A DNA stretch of 24,144 nucleotides, taken from the IMG/VR virus record IMGVR_UViG_3300027796_000300, positions 1-24,144 of that record, one strand, 5' to 3'. This DNA comes from a virus. Shown one piece after another: positions 2,679-18,741 of this stretch (within the stretch, counting starts at the first letter, position 1; the number at the start of each line of letters is the position of its first letter). Made by a program: the position numbers and the translations under genes. The notes under the pieces were generated by a model, which worked only from the letters and a program-made list of their open reading frames with translations, was not told the origin of the DNA and made no database searches.

Positions 2679-3293
2679 TTAGATCATCGCTTTATATTTC
2701 ATCTTCTTTAGTTTTTCATTGGCGGCCAGCATATTCGATTCGTATTTATTGTCATCCGAATTGTCATCAAAGATCATAGCTGTGACATAGTCCTCAATGA
2801 ATTTAGGATTCGACATCTCCGGTTCATCCGTTTCTGACCCGGTTGTGTAGCGGGTCGCTTTTCTCAAATATGGCAAAGTAATTGTCCCGGTCATTGCCGG
2901 CAGTGATCTGAAATTTCCGCTTGCGTCCCAAAAAATATTCGGAGAAAATCCAGCTTGTGCCATCCGCTCTCCCTCTGATGCGTTGACTTCATTCCATTCC
3001 GATCCGTTGATTATCAGCGTCGCCATTTGGAATCCATCGCCCTGCATATTAAAAGACCTTATAAATGCACGGAAATCAGTTGGCAAAGGATCCGTACCCG
3101 TTCCGCTTAAAACAAGTTGCGTAGTAGTCATTAATTCCTTCCAGCTATATCCTTCATCAACCAGATCTTCCCATTCCGAAATGGCATCGTCGACATGGTC
3201 AATCCGCGTTAGAAGATCCTCGCTTCCAGCTTCAGGGTAATCAGTATCCTTAGCGAATTTCCTATGGACTTTTTTTAAGATGTCAGCAATCAT
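2679..3293 (-). CDS. Putative head-tail adaptor (tail tubular A-like) protein
   Basis: This 204-residue soluble protein has an all-helical N-terminal third (MIADILKKVHRKFAKD, then DHVDDAISEWEDLVDEGYSWKEL), a beta-rich middle (residues about 65-150) and a helical C-terminal tail. Helix-beta-helix organisation and size match podovirus gatekeeper/adaptor proteins that sit between the portal and the nozzle. It lies between the giant internal protein (5-base gap) and the nozzle-like gene (4-base gap), the expected place for that function. No family-specific motif is recognised, so the call rests on position and size. Confidence 0.5.
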   Translation of the reverse strand: MIADILKKVHRKFAKDTDYPEAGSEDLLTRIDHVDDAISEWEDLVDEGYSWKELMTTTQLVLSGTGTDPLPTDFRAFIRSFNMQGDGFQMATLIINGSEWNEVNASEGERMAQAGFSPNIFWDASGNFRSLPAMTGTITLPYLRKATRYTTGSETDEPEMSNPKFIEDYVTAMIFDDNSDDNKYESNMLAANEKLKKMKYKAMI

Positions 3294-3298
3294 ATTTT

Positions 3299-6200
3299 TT
3301 ATTTAGCGTTTATTATCTTGTTTCTTCTAGTTCTGCGTACCGGTGGCAATCTCCTGGCTATGAGCGGAAGAGCTCTCTTTCCTATGACGGGCTTCCTTGC
3401 CGTACCCGCGATGAGAGAGCTTATTTTCAGCATCTCAGGGTCAACCAACGACGGATATCTGAACTTCTCTTCCAGCTTCTTCGGCGCCCGGCCTTTAGTG
3501 AATCCTCCTTGACTTTCAATTTTTAATGCCTTATCAATAAGATTTTCTTTTTCTAACGTCAGTTGATCTATTTGATCCTGATCAATAGCTGGATCAAGAG
3601 TCGATATATACGTATTTATGGCCGTAATTTTTTTATCAGCAGCGGTAGCCCACGCTTTAACGTCTTTTTTGGCTTGCGCCCTGTCCATTTCAAGATTAGA
3701 ACTGGATTTATCCAATTTGCTTTTGCGAGCCGTCATGCTTTCCTTATGAAAATCTCCGTTTGAATCCTTGTACCAAAAATCTCCGTTATACTCACGCGCC
3801 CTGTCTTCCGAATCAATAAAGTTCTGCTTATCAACAGCGAAGCGAGCAAGCTTCTCAGTTTTAAATTCCTTATCCAAAGATTTCACATAGATATTTCCAT
3901 TGGACAGCTGACTCATGTCATCAGAAAGATTTTTTGTTTCTCCTGAAGCCTTTCCTGTTTTTAACGACTCTTTTTCTTTGTCCGATGCTCTTTCCGCTGA
4001 GACCTTATTGAAATATCCCAGATCATTTCCCATGAGCTTGTATTTCTCCGTTTGCATATCACTCAAAGGAGCACTGTTCTTATCGTAATAATCCTGAACT
4101 TCACCAAGAGCGCTTTTCCCGAATAGGAGTCCTCTGGCAATATTTCCAGGCGTTGAATCTACCGGAGTCATGACCTTGCCGGTATTATTTTCTGCATAAC
4201 CCTTAAGCAACGCTTTTCCTCCTTGATACATTTTGTCGATTTGCTTTCCGCCAAAAGGAAGAGCGAATCCAGTAAGAGGATTTTGAATCGCGGAAATCAA
4301 CGGAAGCCCGGTTCCGAATCTTGTCGGATCTCCCTCGCCGAAAAAATCCTTCCTCGGAATATTCAAAACTTTAGCGGCATTCGGGAATGTTTCTTTATCA
4401 ATCCCAAATCCGTATTCCGGATATACCCCGGCGAATGTCTGCCCCCCAGGAATATTGGAAAGCCCTTCTCCGGCTATCCTTCCGAGAGCCTTGGCAGCCC
4501 CAACCGCCTTATTGTCCTCATTTTTGTATTCGTCATATGCTTCGATCATGGAGTTGATCGGATCGAAGGAGACATCGGATCCGCGTATTTCCTTCACTAC
4601 GCGATTCATCAAATAACTGGCTACGGAAAATTCAAGCATTTTTTTCGCGACAACCAATTTTCTAGGATCATTCTTAGCGATATCGCGGAGCGCATACCAT
4701 TGGTTGGCGACTTCCAGTTGGAAAGGCGCCACCAGCTGCACTATCTTCGATTTCTGAAGGATCGGAACTTCTCCGATTCCGCGGCCGGCCACCATCTTCC
4801 TAGTCCAGTCATCGGCATACTTCACTGGATTGGCTATCCCATCGCTCAAGGCTTTCTGATATTGGGAATTCCAAATGAATTTCGTCCCGACCTCGTCTCC
4901 GATCCCAGTCATCCACACTGCGAATTTTTTGGTATCATTCAGTATTCCGGTATCGAATTTGTTGAATCCGTCGAAAGTCCTTTCTCGGATGAAAGCAGAC
5001 TGTTTTATTGGTCCGCCTTCCTTGAATATCCCGGCTAAGCTGCTTCCGACGGCCTTGGCTGAGTTCTTTATCCCGGCATTCGCGATGCCTTGAGGGATGT
5101 TGAAAAATTGCGCCAATGAGCTGGAAGCATTTCCCAGGATGGCATTGGCTTTGAATCGGCTATTAGCCCAATTGGCAATACTCAACGCTTTTCTTCCGAA
5201 TACGTTTTCTTGAAATGGACGATCGAGAGGATTTGTTTTACCAGCCAAATCTCTCGAAAAATTTTTAATGAATACCAGGAAATTATTTTCTTTGTTTTCT
5301 GCCTTCTCTGCAGGGGACGATGCCGTGCCTAGATTTTCCAACTGCTTCCCCGTGTTCTTCTTTAGTTTGTTTTTAAGATAAGCTTGAGTTTTTTCATAGT
5401 CCGGAATGTTGGCCAATTCCTTGCTCATCCATTCCGCCTGCGGTTCGCTCACTTCCTTGTCTATCAATATGCTCTTTATCCTTGCCGGATCGGATGAGTC
5501 GGATATCTGCTGGACAGGATCCATTTTCTGCGATAATTCTTCAGCCAAGCCTCTTCTGGTATCGTCTCCGGAAAAAGCGCCCTGCGGAAGCATATCCTTA
5601 GCCTCATCATCAATCCCCTTGAATCTCTGAATGAACGGGTCGATATGCTTGGCATAGGAGTGGTTCTTGATATAGTCCAGATAACCTTCAATAGCTCCGA
5701 AATCATTGGCATCCCCCTTTCTTTTCTGTGCGAAGGATAGCCATTTCGTCTTCGGGTTCGTAACGTCGGATGAAACAGCCAATGCAGGATCGATGCTGGC
5801 TGAACCTTCGAACATATTGCGAAGCCCGGTGAATCCTTCCGAATTCCTTCCATGGCGATAATAGTCCGCTCTTTGCGGGATGACCTTGCTGCTCTCAGGA
5901 TAAAGAGGATGGGTTGGGAAATTAGCTTCACGGACCGCGTTCAAATCATCAAGAAGCTCTGGATATTTGTTCCTGAACCAAGCATCAGCTTTGACGACCT
6001 TCTCCCAGTCATCAGGGAAATCCTTCTGCAGATCCGCCAGGCTTTTCTTTCCCTCTCCGAATTCAACGACTGCCTTATCGAGATCGCTTCCTTTCTTTAT
6101 GCCTAGCTTTTTGACTACCTGATCGAAAACCTCGTTAGTCAAAGCCTCTTGCTCCTTGAAAAGATTCCCTTTCGCCTCATCGAACGGATCAAGCAATTGC

Positions 6201-8626
6201 TCTTTGATTTTGGGATAATTCTTGCCGAATGCCGCCTCGAAATTGCGATAGACGTCTCTTCCGCCAGCCATGAGAGGGTTGATATCGCTTAGCGTTGACG
6301 GATCGACGCCATCCAAAAAATTAGTATTCAAAGATTTCTTGCGCGCATAGTAATCCTTCAGCTGTCCCCATGAAACTTTCTTCTTGATGATCCTGTCCAC
6401 CTGATCGGACAAGAGGTCTTTCGGCATCGCATTCTTTGGAAATCCCAATTCAGAAAGCTTCAAGATCCTGTCCGCCTGCTCATTGCCTATCTTGCGGATC
6501 TCGCTTTTTTTGTATCCGATTTTCCTCAGCTCATTGGGATAATCAAGAAGCTTCTTAATATCATTTATGCGCTCGTTCCTCTTCTCATACGCGCGCTTCT
6601 GATATTCGTTATATCCTCCTTCCGGAACATCGAAAGGAGTTCCGTTATCAGCTATCTTCCCCTTGCTTCTTACGAACTCCTCGATATCAGGCAAGGACAG
6701 TTTTTTGCTTGTTTCCTGTTTCCCATTGACGAATTCCTCTATGCTAGGAAGAGGCTTTTTTTCCGCATTCCCCCCGTTCACATACTCTTCTATATCCGGA
6801 AGCCTTGATTGCTTCCCTTGCGAAATTCCGGATTTAGTGCTAGTGTCAGATAAAGAAACGTCTAGTTGTGGCGTCGTTGCTTCCCCAGGAAGCGGACGTC
6901 GAGAACCTAGGGCCGACTCGTCGGCAGCAAGGTTCGCGCCACTACTAGGCGTTTTTGTTTTATACATCGTAGTCATCGACAGCGTATTGTTACCTGTCCT
7001 AACTTCCTCGATATAATAAACAGTCCCGTTGTATTTTTTCGAATATTTCAACGCATTCAGTCCCTGTTTTGTTTTTGCTGCAAAAGCCACGGTACTTGGA
7101 TTTTCTATAATATCCGGAATAAATTTGAAATCATCAACAGTAAGAGGAATTTCATCTTTAGAATGTTTTTTTAAAGAGTGCCTCAATGCATAATTATCCA
7201 CCTCATGATTGAACTGGGACACATCTATCCCGGTCTTTTCCTGGATTATCTTTGCCGATCGAGGATTAGCTTTACCGACGGTGATCACTTGGCGCTTATA
7301 AGGAGAAAATTCAGATCTGGAAAGGTTGGCTATGTCTTCCCCTATGTCTCCCGACGGCTTCGGAGCCGGCGCCTGGACATTCTGAGGGGCCACAAAACCA
7401 GGCTCTGCGGTGTCCAAACCAGCCTTCTGATTATCTATCTGCCTTCCGACCAATTCCTTCGCCTTAGCCTGTTTTTTAGCGATGACATCTTCCGAAGAAA
7501 CAACCTTCGGCTTTCTCATGTTCACATCTTCGATATTGAGTCCAGGTCTAGCAGTCAGAACTTTTCCCGTGACGCTTTCCGGAACGAACGGATTCCTGAC
7601 TGTTTCAATCACCTTCCTTTCGCTTCCTGGAATCGGACGAGTCGCCGGATCTCCTCCCGAAAAAACACCTGGAATGACTTCGTATTCGCTCTTTGTAGTG
7701 ACGCGCTTAGAATACGGATTCCTGAAATTGGAAATATCCTTTGAAATGTTGGAAGCCTCTTTGGTGATTCCCTCTGCCACCGGCTTTCCCACCACGCCGA
7801 ATCCAGCGCCCATTGCCGTTCCCATTCCAGGAACGAAATCCTTGGGAGTCGCTTTCCCTTTGTCCGCTATATTGCCCAGAACATCAAAGCCATAACCGGT
7901 TCCCGCTCCTGCCGCTAATCTTTTGAGCTTGGAAGCGTTTTCCATCCAATTCAAGGCCTTCGGAGTCTTTCCAGCCGTAGCCACTTCCAAGACGGCTTTC
8001 CCTGTGTCAGCCAGCATGGAAGCCGGGGAAGTATTCGATATAGTCGGCAATATTCCAGTATTGCCTTTTTCGTATTGTTCCCTGACATTCGGATCGGTTG
8101 CATAAGCCAAACCTTCCCCGAAAATCTTCGGAGCCTTAGAAGCAACATTGAGCGTTCCGCCGATCATCTCCTTTCCTGTTTTCAAAGCAGCGCCAGGAAT
8201 CTCGCGAACGAAATCCCTCGCCCGGACATTTTCAGTCGGTTTGAAATAGCTGGTCCTTTCCAGCGGCTTCGATACTTTCATCGGATCATCGAATACGTCC
8301 CCCGAAGCGTCGTATGTCTTCTTGGCGAAGTTCTTTATCGGCTGGATTGCCTTGCTCTGGATTTTCGGCGCTATCTCCTTGCTGGCATAATCCATGGGAG
8401 ACGGATATTTCTGCGTAAAATCCTCCTCCGGTTTGACATAGTTGTCATCGAAGCTTTGCAATTTAGGCGCGACATAATCATCCGCTTTCTGCGTGGCGTT
8501 TCCCAGATAATTTTTAGCGCTATTGTAAGCATAGCCAAGACCACTGGAAACAGCCTTTTGGACAGGCTCTTCCCAGTCTTGCAATTTCTTTTTAGCTTTC
8601 TTGTAAAAATCGGAAAGGAATCCCAT
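3299..8626 (-). CDS. Giant internal virion (ejection) protein with a PBECR-like nuclease segment
   Basis: At 1775 residues this is the largest gene here. Size, location before the tail genes and long helical stretches suggest a T7 gp16-like ejection protein that enters the host with the DNA. Residues about 445-560 look like a phage Barnase-EndoU-ColicinE5/D-RelE-like (PBECR) nuclease: Arg482 and His483 open an RHSLKKH motif, then LTVDDFKFIPDIIENP, YYIEEVRTG and a TTMYK end at residue 554. Three LPxIEEFV-type repeats follow at residues 609, 626 and 645. Residues about 690-1100 are charged helical sequence. Residues about 1110-1350 contain amphipathic or hydrophobic segments (SSSLAQFFNIPQG, IVQLVAPFQLEVANQWY). 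The last 30 residues are very basic (RRLPPVRRTRRNK), possibly binding DNA. It is a multi-domain 'polyvalent' protein; the catalytic role is inferred. Confidence 0.75.
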   Translation of the reverse strand: MGFLSDFYKKAKKKLQDWEEPVQKAVSSGLGYAYNSAKNYLGNATQKADDYVAPKLQSFDDNYVKPEEDFTQKYPSPMDYASKEIAPKIQSKAIQPIKNFAKKTYDASGDVFDDPMKVSKPLERTSYFKPTENVRARDFVREIPGAALKTGKEMIGGTLNVASKAPKIFGEGLAYATDPNVREQYEKGNTGILPTISNTSPASMLADTGKAVLEVATAGKTPKALNWMENASKLKRLAAGAGTGYGFDVLGNIADKGKATPKDFVPGMGTAMGAGFGVVGKPVAEGITKEASNISKDISNFRNPYSKRVTTKSEYEVIPGVFSGGDPATRPIPGSERKVIETVRNPFVPESVTGKVLTARPGLNIEDVNMRKPKVVSSEDVIAKKQAKAKELVGRQIDNQKAGLDTAEPGFVAPQNVQAPAPKPSGDIGEDIANLSRSEFSPYKRQVITVGKANPRSAKIIQEKTGIDVSQFNHEVDNYALRHSLKKHSKDEIPLTVDDFKFIPDIIENPSTVAFAAKTKQGLNALKYSKKYNGTVYYIEEVRTGNNTLSMTTMYKTKTPSSGANLAADESALGSRRPLPGEATTPQLDVSLSDTSTKSGISQGKQSRLPDIEEYVNGGNAEKKPLPSIEEFVNGKQETSKKLSLPDIEEFVRSKGKIADNGTPFDVPEGGYNEYQKRAYEKRNERINDIKKLLDYPNELRKIGYKKSEIRKIGNEQADRILKLSELGFPKNAMPKDLLSDQVDRIIKKKVSWGQLKDYYARKKSLNTNFLDGVDPSTLSDINPLMAGGRDVYRNFEAAFGKNYPKIKEQLLDPFDEAKGNLFKEQEALTNEVFDQVVKKLGIKKGSDLDKAVVEFGEGKKSLADLQKDFPDDWEKVVKADAWFRNKYPELLDDLNAVREANFPTHPLYPESSKVIPQRADYYRHGRNSEGFTGLRNMFEGSASIDPALAVSSDVTNPKTKWLSFAQKRKGDANDFGAIEGYLDYIKNHSYAKHIDPFIQRFKGIDDEAKDMLPQGAFSGDDTRRGLAEELSQKMDPVQQISDSSDPARIKSILIDKEVSEPQAEWMSKELANIPDYEKTQAYLKNKLKKNTGKQLENLGTASSPAEKAENKENNFLVFIKNFSRDLAGKTNPLDRPFQENVFGRKALSIANWANSRFKANAILGNASSSLAQFFNIPQGIANAGIKNSAKAVGSSLAGIFKEGGPIKQSAFIRERTFDGFNKFDTGILNDTKKFAVWMTGIGDEVGTKFIWNSQYQKALSDGIANPVKYADDWTRKMVAGRGIGEVPILQKSKIVQLVAPFQLEVANQWYALRDIAKNDPRKLVVAKKMLEFSVASYLMNRVVKEIRGSDVSFDPINSMIEAYDEYKNEDNKAVGAAKALGRIAGEGLSNIPGGQTFAGVYPEYGFGIDKETFPNAAKVLNIPRKDFFGEGDPTRFGTGLPLISAIQNPLTGFALPFGGKQIDKMYQGGKALLKGYAENNTGKVMTPVDSTPGNIARGLLFGKSALGEVQDYYDKNSAPLSDMQTEKYKLMGNDLGYFNKVSAERASDKEKESLKTGKASGETKNLSDDMSQLSNGNIYVKSLDKEFKTEKLARFAVDKQNFIDSEDRAREYNGDFWYKDSNGDFHKESMTARKSKLDKSSSNLEMDRAQAKKDVKAWATAADKKITAINTYISTLDPAIDQDQIDQLTLEKENLIDKALKIESQGGFTKGRAPKKLEEKFRYPSLVDPEMLKISSLIAGTARKPVIGKRALPLIARRLPPVRRTRRNKIINAK

Positions 8627-8644: not shown

Positions 8645-9847
8645 TTAAGCAGTGATCGGATCGCCGTTCTCATCCACCTCGTTGCCGGCAGCATCCTCAT
8701 ATGCGATAGGATTTCCGGCCGCGTCACGTGATTTCACTTTTATCTTCTTGCCCTGATTATTTTGAGGGTCGAACCAGTCTTCAGCATTGTTCGGATCAGT
8801 GAGATCGATAGTCTCTGAAAAATCAGGCGTATCGAGTTCGGCCGGAGCATCCACATCGACAGCAGCCACATCCAATGCATCGGCCAGTCCCCCGTATTCC
8901 ATATACTTAGCAGCTAGATTATCCCTGAATGACTTGGCCTTGTTCTGTATGTCGCTTATTCCGCTAAGAAGCTTATTGAGGTTCCTATCGCTAAGAGCCT
9001 TGATATCGCTTTCCTTCCATCCGGATTTGTTCTTGCTCAGCCTCTCGAGAGCGTCCTTCTGTTCGTTGTAATCATCCAGCGCCTGTTTCCTTGCCTCCTT
9101 CTCCCATTCATAGGCTTGGGAGCGCTTCGTGTTGTATTCTTCCAGTGCATTCTGAGCTGCCTGGTTCTGTTTGCTGGTCTCATCCCCATAGCTTGTCAAT
9201 ACTCCGGCCCTTGTCTTTCCAGCGCTTTCAGCGATCGCTCTGGCGGCCGCCCTGCTGGCACTTCCTCCGCTGGCGCCTTTGATCCCCAACATCACGTTGG
9301 TGTTATCCATGCTCTTCCTGGTGTCTCCAGCCAAAGTATCAAGATCCTTCTTCTGGTTCTGCTCGATCAGTGTCTTGTTCCCAGTGATAGCGTCGTCGGT
9401 CTTCTTCTTGTAATTATCAAGAGCTGAGATATATTGGTCCCTGACTTTGCCAAGGTTTCCGATGTAGTTCTTGGAAGTGCTAAGGGATTTCTTGGTGGAA
9501 CTGATCAGGTCCCCGGTATCGTCCCATCCCTTTCCGATCGAGGCGATGATCTTGGAATCGTTCGAATTGTTGGTATTCCCTCCCGAACCGGTCGTTTTGC
9601 TCGGACTGGAAATATCGGATGGCTTTTCAGGATCGATAGGAAATCGATTGGTGTTGTCTTCTTTTGTTTGTGCAGGTTTTGTTTCATCATAAAGTCCTCC
9701 GGAGGTATCTTTTCCAACTGCCAGATCCCTTCTGTATTTGTCCGCCACTGCAGACAAGCTGCCCGATTTTATTCCGGTAGTTACTAATCCGTAAATTTCA
9801 TTTACCCCCTTTGAGGCTTTATTGCTAGCATTTGGTATGAGTGCCAT
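8645..9847 (-). CDS. Putative internal virion protein (ejectosome component)
   Basis: The 400-residue protein has a polar Ser/Asn/Thr-rich N-terminal third (residues about 45-100, including a GSGGNTNNSND run), a long helical, coiled-coil-prone centre (residues about 110-310) and an acidic C-terminal third rich in Asp and Glu. The central GASGGSASRAAARAIAESAG stretch is typical of small, Ala-rich ejection proteins in podoviruses. It is immediately upstream of the giant internal protein (18-base gap), as expected for a pair that forms the ejection channel. Its 5' side faces the divergent plus-strand moron. No SD precedes the ATG. No enzymatic motif is seen. Confidence 0.55.
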   Translation of the reverse strand: MALIPNASNKASKGVNEIYGLVTTGIKSGSLSAVADKYRRDLAVGKDTSGGLYDETKPAQTKEDNTNRFPIDPEKPSDISSPSKTTGSGGNTNNSNDSKIIASIGKGWDDTGDLISSTKKSLSTSKNYIGNLGKVRDQYISALDNYKKKTDDAITGNKTLIEQNQKKDLDTLAGDTRKSMDNTNVMLGIKGASGGSASRAAARAIAESAGKTRAGVLTSYGDETSKQNQAAQNALEEYNTKRSQAYEWEKEARKQALDDYNEQKDALERLSKNKSGWKESDIKALSDRNLNKLLSGISDIQNKAKSFRDNLAAKYMEYGGLADALDVAAVDVDAPAELDTPDFSETIDLTDPNNAEDWFDPQNNQGKKIKVKSRDAAGNPIAYEDAAGNEVDENGDPITA

Positions 9848-9886
9848 GTTTTTTTGGTCTTTGCAGCTGCTTTAAAGGCAGCGCTA

Positions 9887-9915
9887 TTGACTTGTTTAGT
9901 TGCTTATTGTATATT
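9887..9915 (+). promoter_or_regulatory. Sigma70-like promoter of the plus-strand moron
   Basis: The -35 box TTGACT (9887-9892) and -10 box TATATT (9910-9915) are separated by exactly 17 bases. Both are close to consensus. A start near 9922 would leave only about 12 untranslated bases before the ATG at 9935, so the signal peptidase mRNA would be almost leaderless. It is the only evident promoter in the plus direction and reads away from the late genes. Confidence 0.75.
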
Positions 9916-9934: not shown

Positions 9935-10351
9935 ATGAAAAAACTGTTTAAATTGATAACCATATATCTTATCGGGTTAGTGACTGCTATTTTTCTCATA
10001 AATTGGCTTGTCTTTGATGTTCAGAAAGCTTATATTTCAGATGTTCAGGATACGCACTCTATGGAGCCGAATTTCAAATATGGGGATTCTGTTATAACTT
10101 TTCCATTTGAGAGGCCGAATATCGGGGATGTGATTGCATTTGACTGTTATGTTCCGGATAAGTGTCTCAATGGAGCTATGCATCGCCTTGTCAGTGTTGA
10201 TTCCAATGGATGTATGTACATCGAAGGAGATAATCAGCCGGACGCTTGGGATATGCATGATTACGGATGTTTAATGCCTGACGAGATTCATATCAAAGGG
10301 GTACTTCATAAACTCAACTCTTTTGAAAATTTATTATTTTTAAATTTTTGA
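9935..10351 (+). CDS. Signal peptidase I family protein, S26B (archaeal/ER/SipW) type
   Basis: This 138-residue protein would cleave signal peptides of exported proteins at the outer face of the cytoplasmic membrane. Residues 7-27 form one N-terminal membrane anchor. The S26 box B is seen as HSMEPNF with Ser42 as nucleophile, followed by GD at 50-51. Box C is IGDVIAF (63-69). The general-base position is His83 in MHRL, not lysine, and GDNQPDAWD follows at 98-106 with Asp103 or Asp106 as the likely third residue. Ser-His-Asp is the archaeal and ER form, also known in Bacillus SipW; bacterial LepB uses Ser-Lys. It is encoded against the late genes behind its own promoter and has no SD. Its substrates are unknown. 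Confidence 0.88.
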   Translation: MKKLFKLITIYLIGLVTAIFLINWLVFDVQKAYISDVQDTHSMEPNFKYGDSVITFPFERPNIGDVIAFDCYVPDKCLNGAMHRLVSVDSNGCMYIEGDNQPDAWDMHDYGCLMPDEIHIKGVLHKLNSFENLLFLNF

Positions 10352-10390
10352 TGAAGTAGTCCAAAAGCTTAGGTTTTGACTTATAAATTC

Positions 10391-10645
10391 ATGCAGACAA
10401 TAAAATCCATGGAATCAAACAGATTAGTATCAAGAACATTGCTTTTGGGCTTTATAGTTTTTGCAATCATAATTTTCTACATCACGAGAATGCATGGCGT
10501 TCTATTTCTAGCCGCGATATCGTTGACAATTGGCTTCATCGTTTCTCTTATTTGGAAAAAGCTTGACCCGGTTACCGGTGATGATTTAAACGACAATCAC
10601 CGTGAAGTTTCATCATTCTCAGACGATTATCTTGGTAAAAAATAA
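10391..10645 (+). CDS. Small two-pass membrane protein of the moron
   Basis: The ATG at 10391 gives 84 residues; an in-frame TTG at 10376 would add five, and an ATG at 10409 would shorten it. Two hydrophobic segments (LLLGFIVFAIIIFYI, then VLFLAAISLTIGFIVSLIW) are separated by a very short loop, followed by a hydrophilic acidic tail of about 28 residues. It begins about 40 bases after the signal peptidase gene and is followed by a terminator, so the two genes probably share one transcript. It could be a partner of the peptidase, a superinfection-exclusion protein or another cell-envelope modifier. No family is recognised. Confidence 0.65.
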   Translation: MQTIKSMESNRLVSRTLLLGFIVFAIIIFYITRMHGVLFLAAISLTIGFIVSLIWKKLDPVTGDDLNDNHREVSSFSDDYLGKK

Positions 10646-10678: not shown

Positions 10679-10700
10679 CCCCGCCCAAGCGGGGCTTTTT
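10679..10700 (+). terminator. Intrinsic terminator ending the moron transcript
   Basis: A perfect 6-bp GC stem (CCCCGC at 10679-10684, GCGGGG at 10689-10694) with a CCAA loop is followed by CTTTTT on the plus strand. It sits between the convergent ends of the membrane protein gene (10645) and the minus-strand gene ending at 10714. In the minus direction the following T-tract (TTTCTC) is interrupted, so it may also act, more weakly, on leftward late transcripts. Confidence 0.85.
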
Positions 10701-10713
10701 CGTGAAAGACGAA

Positions 10714-11019
10714 CTATTTTTCTTCCGATTTTACAATGAGATCAATGATATCAGACTTTTTCAGAGAAGGATCCGCTTCGATACCCTTATCTTGGCAGAC
10801 CTCAAGCAGTTCAGCTTTTGTCATGGAGTCGTATGATGTTTTTGTTTCCTCAAGAATCGATTTGAAGACTTCTTTCTCAACTGATGTAAGATAAGAGCTT
10901 CTCGCGCGTATAACCGCTATTTCTTCCGCGTTCAATGCAGAAACGCTTTTTATCAGCGCATCTTCTAGCTTTTTTTTGTCGCTCTGAACAAGCGTTGACT
11001 TGTCTAATACTTTTTCCAT
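10714..11019 (-). CDS. Small virion-associated protein with a C-terminal SAP/HeH-like domain
   Basis: The 101-residue helical protein ends with a segment at residues about 66-98 (SMTKAELLEVCQDKGI, then KKSDIIDLIV) that matches the pattern of SAP, HeH or Rho-N helix-extension-helix domains. These commonly form the tail of small phage head proteins and bind nucleic acid or partners. It follows the major capsid gene across a 90-base gap containing a hairpin. It may be a head decoration or head-completion protein, but that is inference. The moron terminator lies 14 bases beyond its stop. Confidence 0.55.
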   Translation of the reverse strand: MEKVLDKSTLVQSDKKKLEDALIKSVSALNAEEIAVIRARSSYLTSVEKEVFKSILEETKTSYDSMTKAELLEVCQDKGIEADPSLKKSDIIDLIVKSEEK

Positions 11020-11110: not shown

Positions 11111-12271
11111 CTAGGCGGAAAGGTTGAATTTTGCGTAAAAACAAATTCCTGCCTTGCGTCTTTCATCAGCAACTTTTTCACCATGTCCGAACAAACCTTT
11201 GACAAGGTCGCTGTGACCGTTTGGATTTTGTTCAGCAAGTATAGTTGAGATGTTTTCGATATAATCGAAAGCTCCAGTGATGAAAGCTTTGTGACCGCCA
11301 ACGCATTTGTATCCGTTGGTGTTGTCTCCTGTAAACCATTCGTCCGGTAGGAAATACAAATCAAATCCGGATGTTTTGGCCAATTTCCCTTTGACTACTG
11401 TTTCATCATTGACTTCCTTAATAGAAACATTGAAAATCGCCGCTTCCATAAGAACCGGCCCAGCCGAGTCTGCAGGGAGAGCCAACCATCTTTTTCCATC
11501 ATTAGGAACCTTGTTGGTATTCAATTTTGCAGAAAGCTTATTGAGATAGAACTTGAAGTTTTTCTCTGTGATTGCTAGGCAAGTATTGGCCTGAATCACA
11601 TAGGCAGCTCCGGCAGTAATTGCTCCGCCATCATATGCAGAAGCTTTGTCATCAGAATCGTTTTCGATAGATATGTGTGTCGCGTCGACATAAGAACCGA
11701 CTTTAACCCGATAAAACCTTGAATGACCAGCCGCCCTGAACGGCTTTCCCTCCATGCTTGAAGTGAATGTCGTTCCATTTCCTACTACTGCTCCGGTAGT
11801 TTCCGAAACGGCGACCGAACCTGTAGAATAATCAGTTCCGACCCAGTTTCCTGCAGCTGCATCCGCCCAGTATGCCATAAGGCACTTGTCCATTTCCTCA
11901 TACAGGGAATTTCCAGCCTGATTTATGATTTCGCTATCTGGAGCATCTACCGCTGAAGCGAAAGCATCTACAGATGGGATCTCGTCAGCAATTTCCAAGA
12001 AGGTATTGACAACCAATCTGGAAAGAACTTCCGTAACCTTCGAATAAGTGATAGCGCTTTTCCCGTCAGTGGATTTCCATCCGCCGCCAGTCAAAGTCGT
12101 AACTACGAATTCCTTCCATTTCTTATCTACTTTTTTCTTCATTTTGGGGTCAGAAACATTCTGAGCCTCAAAATCACTGTTGACCACATCCACATACATC
12201 GAGCGCTGAAAGAACTTTTGAAGTGCTTTAGTCTGATATTTGATGGAGGTAGTCGTTGTTCCTAATTCCAT
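11111..12271 (-). CDS. Major capsid protein
   Basis: The chosen start (ATG at 12271, MELGTTTTSIKYQ) gives 386 residues. A further 18 codons upstream are open, but they run through the intergenic hairpin region and look non-coding. The N-terminal helix, the long central region and the C-terminal FDYIENISTILAEQNPNG ... GEKVADERRKAGICFYAKFNL pattern fit an HK97-fold capsid subunit. Residues about 150-240 look like a beta-rich inserted domain (GSVAVSETTGAVVGNGTTFTS, YRVKVGSYVDATHISI). It lies directly after the scaffold-like gene, the standard order. Expression should be high; only a weak AAGAT element precedes the start. An exact fold assignment would need structure prediction. Confidence 0.8.
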   Translation of the reverse strand: MELGTTTTSIKYQTKALQKFFQRSMYVDVVNSDFEAQNVSDPKMKKKVDKKWKEFVVTTLTGGGWKSTDGKSAITYSKVTEVLSRLVVNTFLEIADEIPSVDAFASAVDAPDSEIINQAGNSLYEEMDKCLMAYWADAAAGNWVGTDYSTGSVAVSETTGAVVGNGTTFTSSMEGKPFRAAGHSRFYRVKVGSYVDATHISIENDSDDKASAYDGGAITAGAAYVIQANTCLAITEKNFKFYLNKLSAKLNTNKVPNDGKRWLALPADSAGPVLMEAAIFNVSIKEVNDETVVKGKLAKTSGFDLYFLPDEWFTGDNTNGYKCVGGHKAFITGAFDYIENISTILAEQNPNGHSDLVKGLFGHGEKVADERRKAGICFYAKFNLSA

Positions 12272-12293
12272 GATCTTAAAGTTAATTTTTACA

Positions 12294-12339
12294 ATTACAC
12301 ACATTTGCACTTGGTGTAATCGCATTAACTGCTATTACA
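12294..12339 (-). promoter_or_regulatory. Mutually exclusive hairpins between scaffold and capsid genes
   Basis: The minus strand carries TGTAAT (12339-12334, overlapping the scaffold stop codon), ATTACAC (12320-12314) and GTGTAAT (12300-12294). The middle element can pair with either neighbour: 6 bp with the first or 7 bp with the last. Two alternative hairpins just ahead of the capsid start (12271) could couple scaffold translation to capsid expression. The stems are A/T-rich and modest, so this is a candidate only. Confidence 0.35.
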
Positions 12340-16613: not shown

Positions 16614-18167
16614 TTAAATTAAATATCCTCGCTTGTCGTAAGAATCAGGCTGTTTATAATTATCGTATTTCTTGTATGGATCTTTCTCTTTAGCGATATT
16701 CGCCTTATCAAGATTGACTGCCAGATATTCAGTCGCGGATCGATGATGGGACGTCCAGTCATGGATCGGCAGCGTTACCGGAGAAGTCGCTTGCGAGTTC
16801 TCGTTGCGCTGAGGATAGCGAGCGAACTTGATGGATGAAACCCACATCTTCGTACCGACATCCCCTGATCCAGGGGTATCATTCACCTCGATTCCTTTCT
16901 GTAAGAATACTTTCGTCTTTTCCTTCCTGATTGCGAAAGTATTTGCTTCCGGTGATGTCTGGACGAAGATTCCGGCCTTCTCTAGCTCAAGCCTGGTACT
17001 GGTCTTTTCCTTGCTCGTGATAGATCTCTTGGCTACGTCAGGATCTCCCAGATGGACAGCTTTTTTCCACTGGCTGACCTTGGCAATCAAAGCCAGCTCT
17101 TCAGACGTATATTCGAACAATGAATCGATAAGGTTTCCAGGGAAGAACGGGAACAGATAGTGGATCGAGACATTCTCTTTCTTGTATGCTTCAACCAATC
17201 TATATTTTCCATTGTCCATGTTCTTCTGCCACCATTGGACCGCTATTCCATCCAATCCGAAGTCCCACGTCACGAATAGCGGCCATTCCGGATTATATGG
17301 AAATATCCCGACTTCGATATGCTTGATTTCGTCATACACCCTACCCCTGATGGACGTGTCCCAGTTCCTCATGATCTCCCGGGCAAAGTCCTCTTCGCTT
17401 CGGCGCTCACGCTCTCCATTGATGTATTTATCATCTTTTCGAGGATCAAGAGAATAATCGAGTTCTATAATCTTAATCTTTTCTCCATCTTCTCCGAATC
17501 TAAGGCGCTTGGCTTTTCCAGGCTTGATTCCTGGAGTGGTGATGACTATTCTACAATTGGTCGTGTCGGCAGTAGATCCCCAGGCTGCGGTATCGTTATC
17601 CCAAAAAGCGAATTCATCAAGGATGATTAATTTATACCGGCCTCCTCGCGAGAAGTTTTGATTTGATGATTCTCCAGAAATAACATTGCCATTCTCAGGA
17701 TTGATAAGCGACATGTAAGTGAGATGTTTTCTAAAATCAAAACCTTTCGGGAGTATGAATTTCGGCTGCCTCATTAAGGTATATTCTATTTTCCCAAATA
17801 GCGATTCCTCTTTGTTTGAGTTCCCTCCGGAATCTCCCTTGGTATTGTCGACATAAGCTTCCTTGCGGGATCCAAGCAATACGTTTGATCCAGGAATATA
17901 TCTCCAAAACCAAAGTGCCACATCAAGCACGGTATATGATGCTCCCATGTCGCGACTTTTTTCAATGAAAATATCATAGCCATCTTCAATTCCTTGTCTT
18001 ATTTCATCAACCAGATTCTCTTGGAATGGAAACAGCTTGAATTTGAGGTGATGCGGTGCGCGCTTAGGGTCAAAGGTCTTGCAGAAATTGTTGATGTAAG
18101 CTTTAGGATTGGATTCAGCATCCTTTTTCATCTCCTTGAGTTTTGCTAGTTTCTCTTCACGAGACAT
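16614..18167 (-). CDS. terL: Terminase large subunit (packaging ATPase and nuclease)
   Basis: The motor pumps DNA into the prohead and cuts concatemers. With the start at 18167 (MSREEK) it has 517 residues. The N-terminal ATPase shows a Walker A variant SRDMGASYT at 71-79, Walker B LIILDEF at 180-186 with catalytic Glu, and coupling motif IVITTPG at 207-213. The C-terminal RNase H-like nuclease begins with VTWDFGLDG (first Asp) and contains the LGDPDVAKRS segment. It overlaps the small terminase gene by 11 bases. An in-frame ATG at 18200 would extend it into a region coding for the small subunit tail, which is less likely. Confidence 0.93.
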   Translation of the reverse strand: MSREEKLAKLKEMKKDAESNPKAYINNFCKTFDPKRAPHHLKFKLFPFQENLVDEIRQGIEDGYDIFIEKSRDMGASYTVLDVALWFWRYIPGSNVLLGSRKEAYVDNTKGDSGGNSNKEESLFGKIEYTLMRQPKFILPKGFDFRKHLTYMSLINPENGNVISGESSNQNFSRGGRYKLIILDEFAFWDNDTAAWGSTADTTNCRIVITTPGIKPGKAKRLRFGEDGEKIKIIELDYSLDPRKDDKYINGERERRSEEDFAREIMRNWDTSIRGRVYDEIKHIEVGIFPYNPEWPLFVTWDFGLDGIAVQWWQKNMDNGKYRLVEAYKKENVSIHYLFPFFPGNLIDSLFEYTSEELALIAKVSQWKKAVHLGDPDVAKRSITSKEKTSTRLELEKAGIFVQTSPEANTFAIRKEKTKVFLQKGIEVNDTPGSGDVGTKMWVSSIKFARYPQRNENSQATSPVTLPIHDWTSHHRSATEYLAVNLDKANIAKEKDPYKKYDNYKQPDSYDKRGYLI

Positions 18168-18741
18168 ATTCGTCGAGTTCATCATCGCTAATGTTATCAA
18201 TTATGTTTTGGTTGCTATTCGAATTCTGGTTGCTGTTGTTGATTAGGATCTCTGCTCCCTCTAGTCCCAAGAGGCGGCCGAGTGCTTGATGGTAATGCCG
18301 GCGTGTCTTATGGTCCGGTTCTTCAATGGTAGAGTTCACTGGCCCGAAATCATCGAATCCGGTGCATATCTCTACTTTTATTGAAGCTTCAAGCCCTTGT
18401 TTAAGCTGATAAAGATACTTATCGACTCCGACTCCGTATGCTTCCAATATCATTTCGATTCCCCCGAGATTCTTAACTTTTCTTAACAATCGGCATCCCA
18501 TCACGCTCGCAACGTCATAGCTGACTCCTTTGTTTAATGCCTGATATGCCTTGGTGGCGTTCCGGTTATTTTTCATCCAGGCTAGAAAGAACAAAACCAG
18601 CTCCTTGTCTCCTTCGAAAGCCTGCTCCAAAACTGACATGCTGCTGGGAATAAGTTCGAGCTTCTCAGGTGTTTTATTCTTTGCAATAGCATTCTTAGGA
18701 GCTCTCTTTCTCGGTTTTTGTTTGGGTTTGCTTTTCGGCAT
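18157..18741 (-). CDS. terS: Terminase small subunit
   Basis: This 194-residue protein recognises phage DNA for packaging. The N-terminus is very basic (KSKPKQKPRKRAPKN). Residues about 50-90 (AWMKNNRNATKAYQAL through MGCRLLRKVK) form a helix-turn-helix of the terminase small subunit type, followed by helical oligomerisation sequence. The C-terminal tail is Asn/Ser-rich and ends acidic (ISDDELDEYVS). It sits directly before the large subunit with an 11-base overlap. One base separates its ATG from the TGA of the 41-residue gene upstream. Confidence 0.85.
   Translation of the reverse strand: MPKSKPKQKPRKRAPKNAIAKNKTPEKLELIPSSMSVLEQAFEGDKELVLFFLAWMKNNRNATKAYQALNKGVSYDVASVMGCRLLRKVKNLGGIEMILEAYGVGVDKYLYQLKQGLEASIKVEICTGFDDFGPVNSTIEEPDHKTRRHYHQALGRLLGLEGAEILINNSNQNSNSNQNIIDNISDDELDEYVS

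Follow-up and report, generated by a model that had tools for sequence, protein, structure and literature searches.

On balance, we favor a reading in which the S26 gene at positions 9935-10351 (+) supplies the peptidase in a moron-like cassette for lysogenic conversion, carried by temperate phages of Moranbacteria, and in which its product cleaves a cassette partner, host surface proteins, or both, using, if active, Ser42 and His83. The gene lies in an IMG/VR virus record (IMGVR_UViG_3300027796_000300) that was analyzed over its full 24,144 bases, referred to here as the window.

An S26-family protein with an altered catalytic center

The gene encodes an S26-like, membrane-anchored signal peptidase of 138 amino acids, a designation that draws on the open reading frame call, the residues, profile matches, homologues, and trees. 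An N-terminal hydrophobic membrane segment (residues 3-19) is followed by the catalytic-serine box Ser42-Met43-Glu44-Pro45 (HSMEP; Ser42 codon TCT), by His83-Arg84 in MHRL (His83 codon CAT), and by a GDN box at residues 98-100, with Asp99 and Asp106. The open reading frame and all three motifs had been reported in a first-pass annotation, and the translation bears them out. The domain also has four cysteines (Cys71, Cys77, Cys93, and Cys112). The lysine general base required in S26A (P-type, Ser-Lys) enzymes is missing, and His83, a base of the S26B type, is in its place. Lysine to histidine takes two base changes, so one sequencing error does not explain it. Box E reads GDNQPDAWDMHDYG. Compared to GDNxxxSxDSR, GDN and Asp106 are retained, and Ser104, Ser107, and Arg108 are replaced by Ala, Met, and His, respectively. 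Catalysis by signal peptidase I of E. coli relies on Ser90 and Lys145, and optimal activity also requires Ser278, whereas in the signal peptidases of the ER and archaea a histidine replaces the lysine (PMC2913515). The residue pattern in the window protein fits either a switch of the base or a protein that has become inactive.

Matches of the window protein to S26 profiles are weak. They comprise TIGR02228 (E=8.9e-6), TIGR02754 (5.6e-4), TIGR02227 (5.7e-4), and PF10502 (E=0.0017), all four below the curated cut-offs (for PF10502, 18.8 bits vs 22.9). The similarity is well beyond chance because homologues in the same genomic slot of three sister phages (L123, L141, and L177) exceed the PF10502 cut-off with 35-50 bits, and because full-length relatives in Moranbacteria match with E-values of 1e-12 to 1e-15. 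The earlier proposal of an S26-type peptidase in a phage thus stands. When whole genomes were searched with the window protein (P0001), 25 of 129 genomes of the Moranbacteria order had matches at E<=0.01, the six best being those at 1e-12 to 1e-15. Across the phylum, matches at E<=1e-5 were found in 7 of 380 genomes, none as good as these six, and full-length relatives appeared only in some Moranbacteria genomes. Back-translated single-sequence scans of viral and genome contigs with the same query found no relative. Traits of the S24 proteins (LexA/CI/UmuD) are lacking: there is no HTH, with an N-terminal membrane segment instead, a PF00717 search of the window was empty, and the protein matched no PHROG repressor family. 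(A separate candidate, L178, was rejected as an S26 member and is an S24-type repressor.) Sequence comparisons thus identify the window protein as an S26-family protein with a single N-terminal membrane segment.

AlphaFold without an alignment gave a pLDDT of 50 for the protein, and a structure model built from four sequences had a pLDDT of 74.5. Foldseek alone found no match to the model at E<=0.001 in the PDB or BFVD. In a second-look structural comparison, which covered residues 40-134 of the moderate-confidence model, the top 28 matches were all LexA, UmuD, lambda repressor, or signal peptidase I (S24/S26), with Z scores of 5.4-7.1. The best matches of the family profile were 4me8 and 4nv4. 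The model, of moderate confidence, suggests that the catalytic domain has the LexA/signal-peptidase fold.

Among the structural matches is SipA (4n31), whose entry calls it a signal peptidase homologue that pilus polymerization requires. The main rival to an active enzyme, which we regard as rather unlikely, is a pseudo-peptidase that has lost catalysis and binds exported proteins or acts as an assembly factor, as SipA does in pilus polymerization in Streptococcus pyogenes. The simultaneous replacement of Lys83, Ser104, and Arg108, the degraded box E, and the long branch of the protein in trees (1.2-1.4 changes per site) are all consistent with such a loss. However, Ser42, Asp99, and Asp106 are kept, residue 83 is the base found in S26B (PMC2913515), and the open reading frame, promoter, and terminator are intact. 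Most likely, the protein is an exported, membrane-anchored peptidase that acts on its partner or on host surface proteins. Since the lysine base and the box-E serine and arginine were lost together in the window phage but Ser42 and Asp106 remain, this peptidase, if active, would probably work with Ser42-His83, perhaps together with Asp106.

Placement among the Ser-Lys and S26B enzymes

On the strength of His83, the protein had initially been filed under S26B. We compared it to S26A and S26B proteins in trees of 47 and 50 sequences, from an alignment of <100 columns, and in a third tree without the dyad and box-E columns. The split between the Ser-Lys side and S26B has support of 100/99, and the window protein is on the Ser-Lys side, within a clade of cysteine-rich small S26 proteins (96/88, or 97/93 with more phages) and paired with a protein from the phage contig L182 (96/89). 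In the third tree, the window gene and the two sister-phage genes then sampled (L093 and L141) form a clade with support of 95/85. AU tests of trees in which the window protein is joined to S26B gave p values of 0.21, 0.14, and 0.30, so that with <100 alignment columns this grouping is not rejected. Because the trees place the window protein among the Ser-Lys enzymes, His83 most likely arose inside that clade, an origin that is supported but that the AU test and the short alignment keep from being proven. Its Ser-His chemistry would then have been reached independently of S26B.

The alignment can be read in the same direction. Position 83 is lysine in all other members of the clade (16/16) and in 20/20 S26A/SodX-like rows, and histidine in 13/13 S26B rows. 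Position 104 is serine in 36/36 Ser-Lys rows and alanine in the window protein. We think it quite unlikely that the window gene is a genuine S26B gene of a Patescibacteria host that replaced the Ser-Lys gene of the slot. Beyond His83 and the AU values, this explanation could draw on TIGR02228 (archaeal type) being the best single profile of the window protein, and on S26B being common in Patescibacteria (above cut-off in 65 of 287 genomes). It has to contend not only with the best trees but also with the four domain cysteines, present in 0/13 S26B rows (most S26A rows also lack them), with Asp106 and a box E of S26A length, columns that the S26B rows lack, and with the absence of the C-terminal membrane segment found in the sampled Patescibacteria S26B proteins. 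In addition, the slot and promoter of the window gene match those of its lysine-bearing sisters.

Known groups each share part of this design. S26A signal peptidase I (LepB/SPase I) and phrog_15562, which matches host S26A strongly, have the SM.P and GDN boxes and the LexA/SPase fold that the model suggests for the window protein, and phage-borne members exist; unlike the window protein, they have a lysine base, the SxDSR box, a longer domain, and no cysteine pattern. S26B enzymes (archaeal Sec11, SEC11, SipW; TIGR02228) resemble it in the histidine base and the conserved serine and aspartate, but differ in their shorter box E, in having no cysteines in the sampled rows, and in the C-terminal membrane segment.

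The cysteine-rich small-S26 clade occurs in Moranbacteria chromosomes and in their phages. Five chromosomal proteins (from L121, L122, L124, L125, and L126) are 26-35% identical to the window protein over the full length and share its design, with 133-140 amino acids, one N-terminal transmembrane segment, four domain cysteines, and the GDN box. They differ in their lysine base, SxDSR box, and chromosomal location, where they adjoin either a gene for a RecB-like nuclease or two genes for membrane proteins. The L182 protein, nearest to the window protein in the tree (GDNQPSSWDSNDYGWLC vs GDNQPDAWDMHDYGCLM), has a lysine base and comes from an early-gene setting in another phage type (a 44-kb contig). 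There (3033-4282, +), the 116-aa cysteine-rich S26 gene directly follows that of an SPFH/prohibitin-like membrane protein. Moranbacteria also have a second cysteine-rich S26-like family (L127 8468-8914, -; L131 9072-9518, -), whose N-terminus seems to be a signal peptide rather than a membrane anchor. It has a conserved neighborhood, and the adjoining gene resembles a sugar-phosphate nucleotidyltransferase.

A variable cassette among the virion genes

The minus strand of the window carries virion genes, recognized by PHROG matches and as conserved virion-operon genes. Among them are the terminase large subunit (16614-18200, -; PHROG match) and the major capsid protein (11111-12325, -; phrog_267 major head protein, E=1.7e-10; 77% identity to L002). 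Residues 455-558 of a 1775-aa protein of this operon (3302-8626, -) form a PBECR3 nuclease-like domain (E=1e-18). In terminase searches, a near relative, IMGVR_UViG_3300025154_002773, was 85% identical to the window in terminase and 77% in capsid. A Ca. Moraniibacteriota MAG contains nearly the same phage as this relative, on a contig of 82 kb (TerL 85% identical). About 50 kb of that contig is bacterial, with SecA, a class I (Trp/Tyr-type) tRNA synthetase, and a NifU-like protein among its genes, and the order is bacterial genes, then a tyrosine integrase, then phage. The prophage region (L059/L060, 51.5-82 kb) encodes an M23 peptidase as well as the integrase. By this gene order, the sister of the window contig is an integrated prophage of a Patescibacteria host (Ca. 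Moraniibacteriota). Because a relative is integrated in a Patescibacteria chromosome, the window phage, too, is very probably a temperate phage of such a host; we infer both because the integrase end is absent from the window contig.

The S26 gene and its neighbor run opposite to the flanking virion genes. Their slot is bordered on the left by a 400-aa virion-operon gene (8645-9847, -) that is conserved in sister phages at 52-66% identity, and on the right by a 101-aa gene (10714-11019, -) downstream of the major capsid gene, with a homologue in L001/L002. The cassette has a predicted sigma-70-like promoter, TTGACT-17-TATATT (9887-9915, +), that matches the consensus at 10/12 positions; 0.45% of shuffles gave as good a match in the stretch upstream. 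Downstream of the S26 gene, and co-oriented with it as reported earlier, is the gene for a small protein with two hydrophobic segments (10376-10645, +; 89 aa from TTG, or 84 aa from ATG at 10391), a probable cassette partner. An intrinsic-terminator-like hairpin with a T run (CCCCGC-loop-GCGGGG-CTTTTT; 10679-10694, +) ends the cassette. The cassette genes have a GC content of 0.35-0.36 vs 0.43-0.49 in neighboring genes. An imperfect inverted repeat (GCTGC..GCAGC, ~9863-9885) lies between the start of the 400-aa gene and the promoter, is similar in L123 and L141, and may be an operator or a leader hairpin.

The same slot holds an S26 gene in the sister phages L123, L141, and L177. These genes are like the window gene in position, orientation, promoter, and a downstream membrane or secreted partner, but they have lysine at the position of His83, an intact SxDSR box, and unrelated partners. 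In L123, from a contig binned with Moranbacteria, the S26 gene is accompanied by one for a 245-aa membrane protein, in L141 by genes for 102-aa and 197-aa proteins, and in L177 by one for a 235-aa protein that starts with a textbook signal peptide (predicted FSLA^TSG). A cysteine-rich stretch, CCSYHGGVSHC, and a C-terminal membrane segment are further features of the L177 partner (5195-5902, +), which also gives a weak Ig-like/tail host-specificity match. In the Moraniibacteriota prophage and its IMG/VR twin (L002/L048), the slot holds genes for 77-aa and 112-aa membrane proteins in the same orientation and no S26 gene. In each of the five cassettes, consensus and conservation point to a sigma-70-like promoter immediately upstream and to terminator-like hairpins. 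The promoter matches in the sister phages are 10-11/12 at the same place. The stretch is nearly the same in the four S26 phages, with the window and L177 nearly identical across it, and the closing hairpins of L141 and L177 are similar.

The window partner had no convincing family match in profile searches. Weak and inconsistent matches to a holin or an MFS fragment were not accepted, and the L002 cassette proteins were rejected as relatives, being unrelated. Because partners in this slot differ between sister phages and are unrelated to that of the window, a dedicated peptidase-partner pair is a candidate only.

We read the slot as a moron cargo cassette because it is on the opposite strand, has its own predicted promoter and terminator, varies in content at one site, and is low in GC. 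Phage morons and lysogenic-conversion genes share all of these features. Unlike known morons, the window cassette combines a signal-peptidase homologue with a small membrane protein, and the literature searched yielded no moron that includes a signal peptidase.

The cassette organization also bears on an early suggestion that the enzyme matures a virion protein. We consider a protease that processes a capsid or tail protein, or a membrane-bound lysin, in the lytic cycle very unlikely. The gene does sit within the virion region, and phages of the group encode membrane-anchored wall enzymes (e.g., a 234-aa protein in L048), but it has its own promoter and reads counter to the virion operon, in a cargo-like slot, it is dispensable in that L002/L048 have no S26 gene, and no virion protein in the window was found to have a signal peptide.

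Possible roles in the lysogen and significance

We postulate that the S26 gene is expressed from the cassette's own promoter and that its product is anchored N-in/C-out, with disulfides stabilizing the domain. There it would cut the cassette partner, host surface proteins, or both at their signal peptides or membrane anchors, and cleavage would alter the surface of the lysogen. A host-modifying role, one of several first suggested, thus keeps some support as one option among others. A search for a phage protein with a matching signal peptide had also been suggested. In a crude scan of the window genes, none had a clear cleavable signal peptide; the partner in L177 has one.

It seems unlikely that the enzyme raises or bypasses the signal-peptidase activity of the host in general, without a particular substrate. 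In favor of this, a PF10502 search of the Moraniibacteriota host genome (G001) found one S26A gene, but the host thus already owns an S26A enzyme, and the phage S26 genes are in every case accompanied by membrane or secreted partners that vary. We propose more tentatively, as a possibility short of even odds, the full evolutionary account, in which a Ser-Lys signal peptidase independently turned into a Ser-His(-Asp) enzyme, losing its lysine and the supporting serine and arginine together, in a cassette that remodels the surface of a Patescibacteria host.

Signal peptidases in phages were initially thought to have few examples; they are indeed rare, but not unprecedented. S26A genes occur in two large metagenomic phages, Acinetobacter phage MD-2021a has an annotated lepB, and an annotated signal peptidase of Bacillus phage BCD7 is among the weak structural matches. 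Most S26 matches in named phage records lie in unannotated fragments that may be host DNA. In a study of Patescibacteriota phages, peptidases were removed from the set of auxiliary genes and signal peptidases go unmentioned (PMC12911398), and no study of a phage-encoded signal peptidase was found in the literature searched, which covered few subscription journals. What is new is the recurrent S26 cassette in a Patescibacteria phage lineage, together with its histidine variant; phage-borne signal peptidases were already known.

A lysine or histidine base separates the bacterial from the archaeal and ER signal peptidases (PMC2913515, PMC12984324), and the window protein provides a natural test of a change from lysine to histidine in type I signal peptidases. 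Patescibacteria are ultra-small and have few cultured phages, and a signal-peptidase cassette that recurs at one genomic site gives a lead on how temperate phages may alter these hosts.
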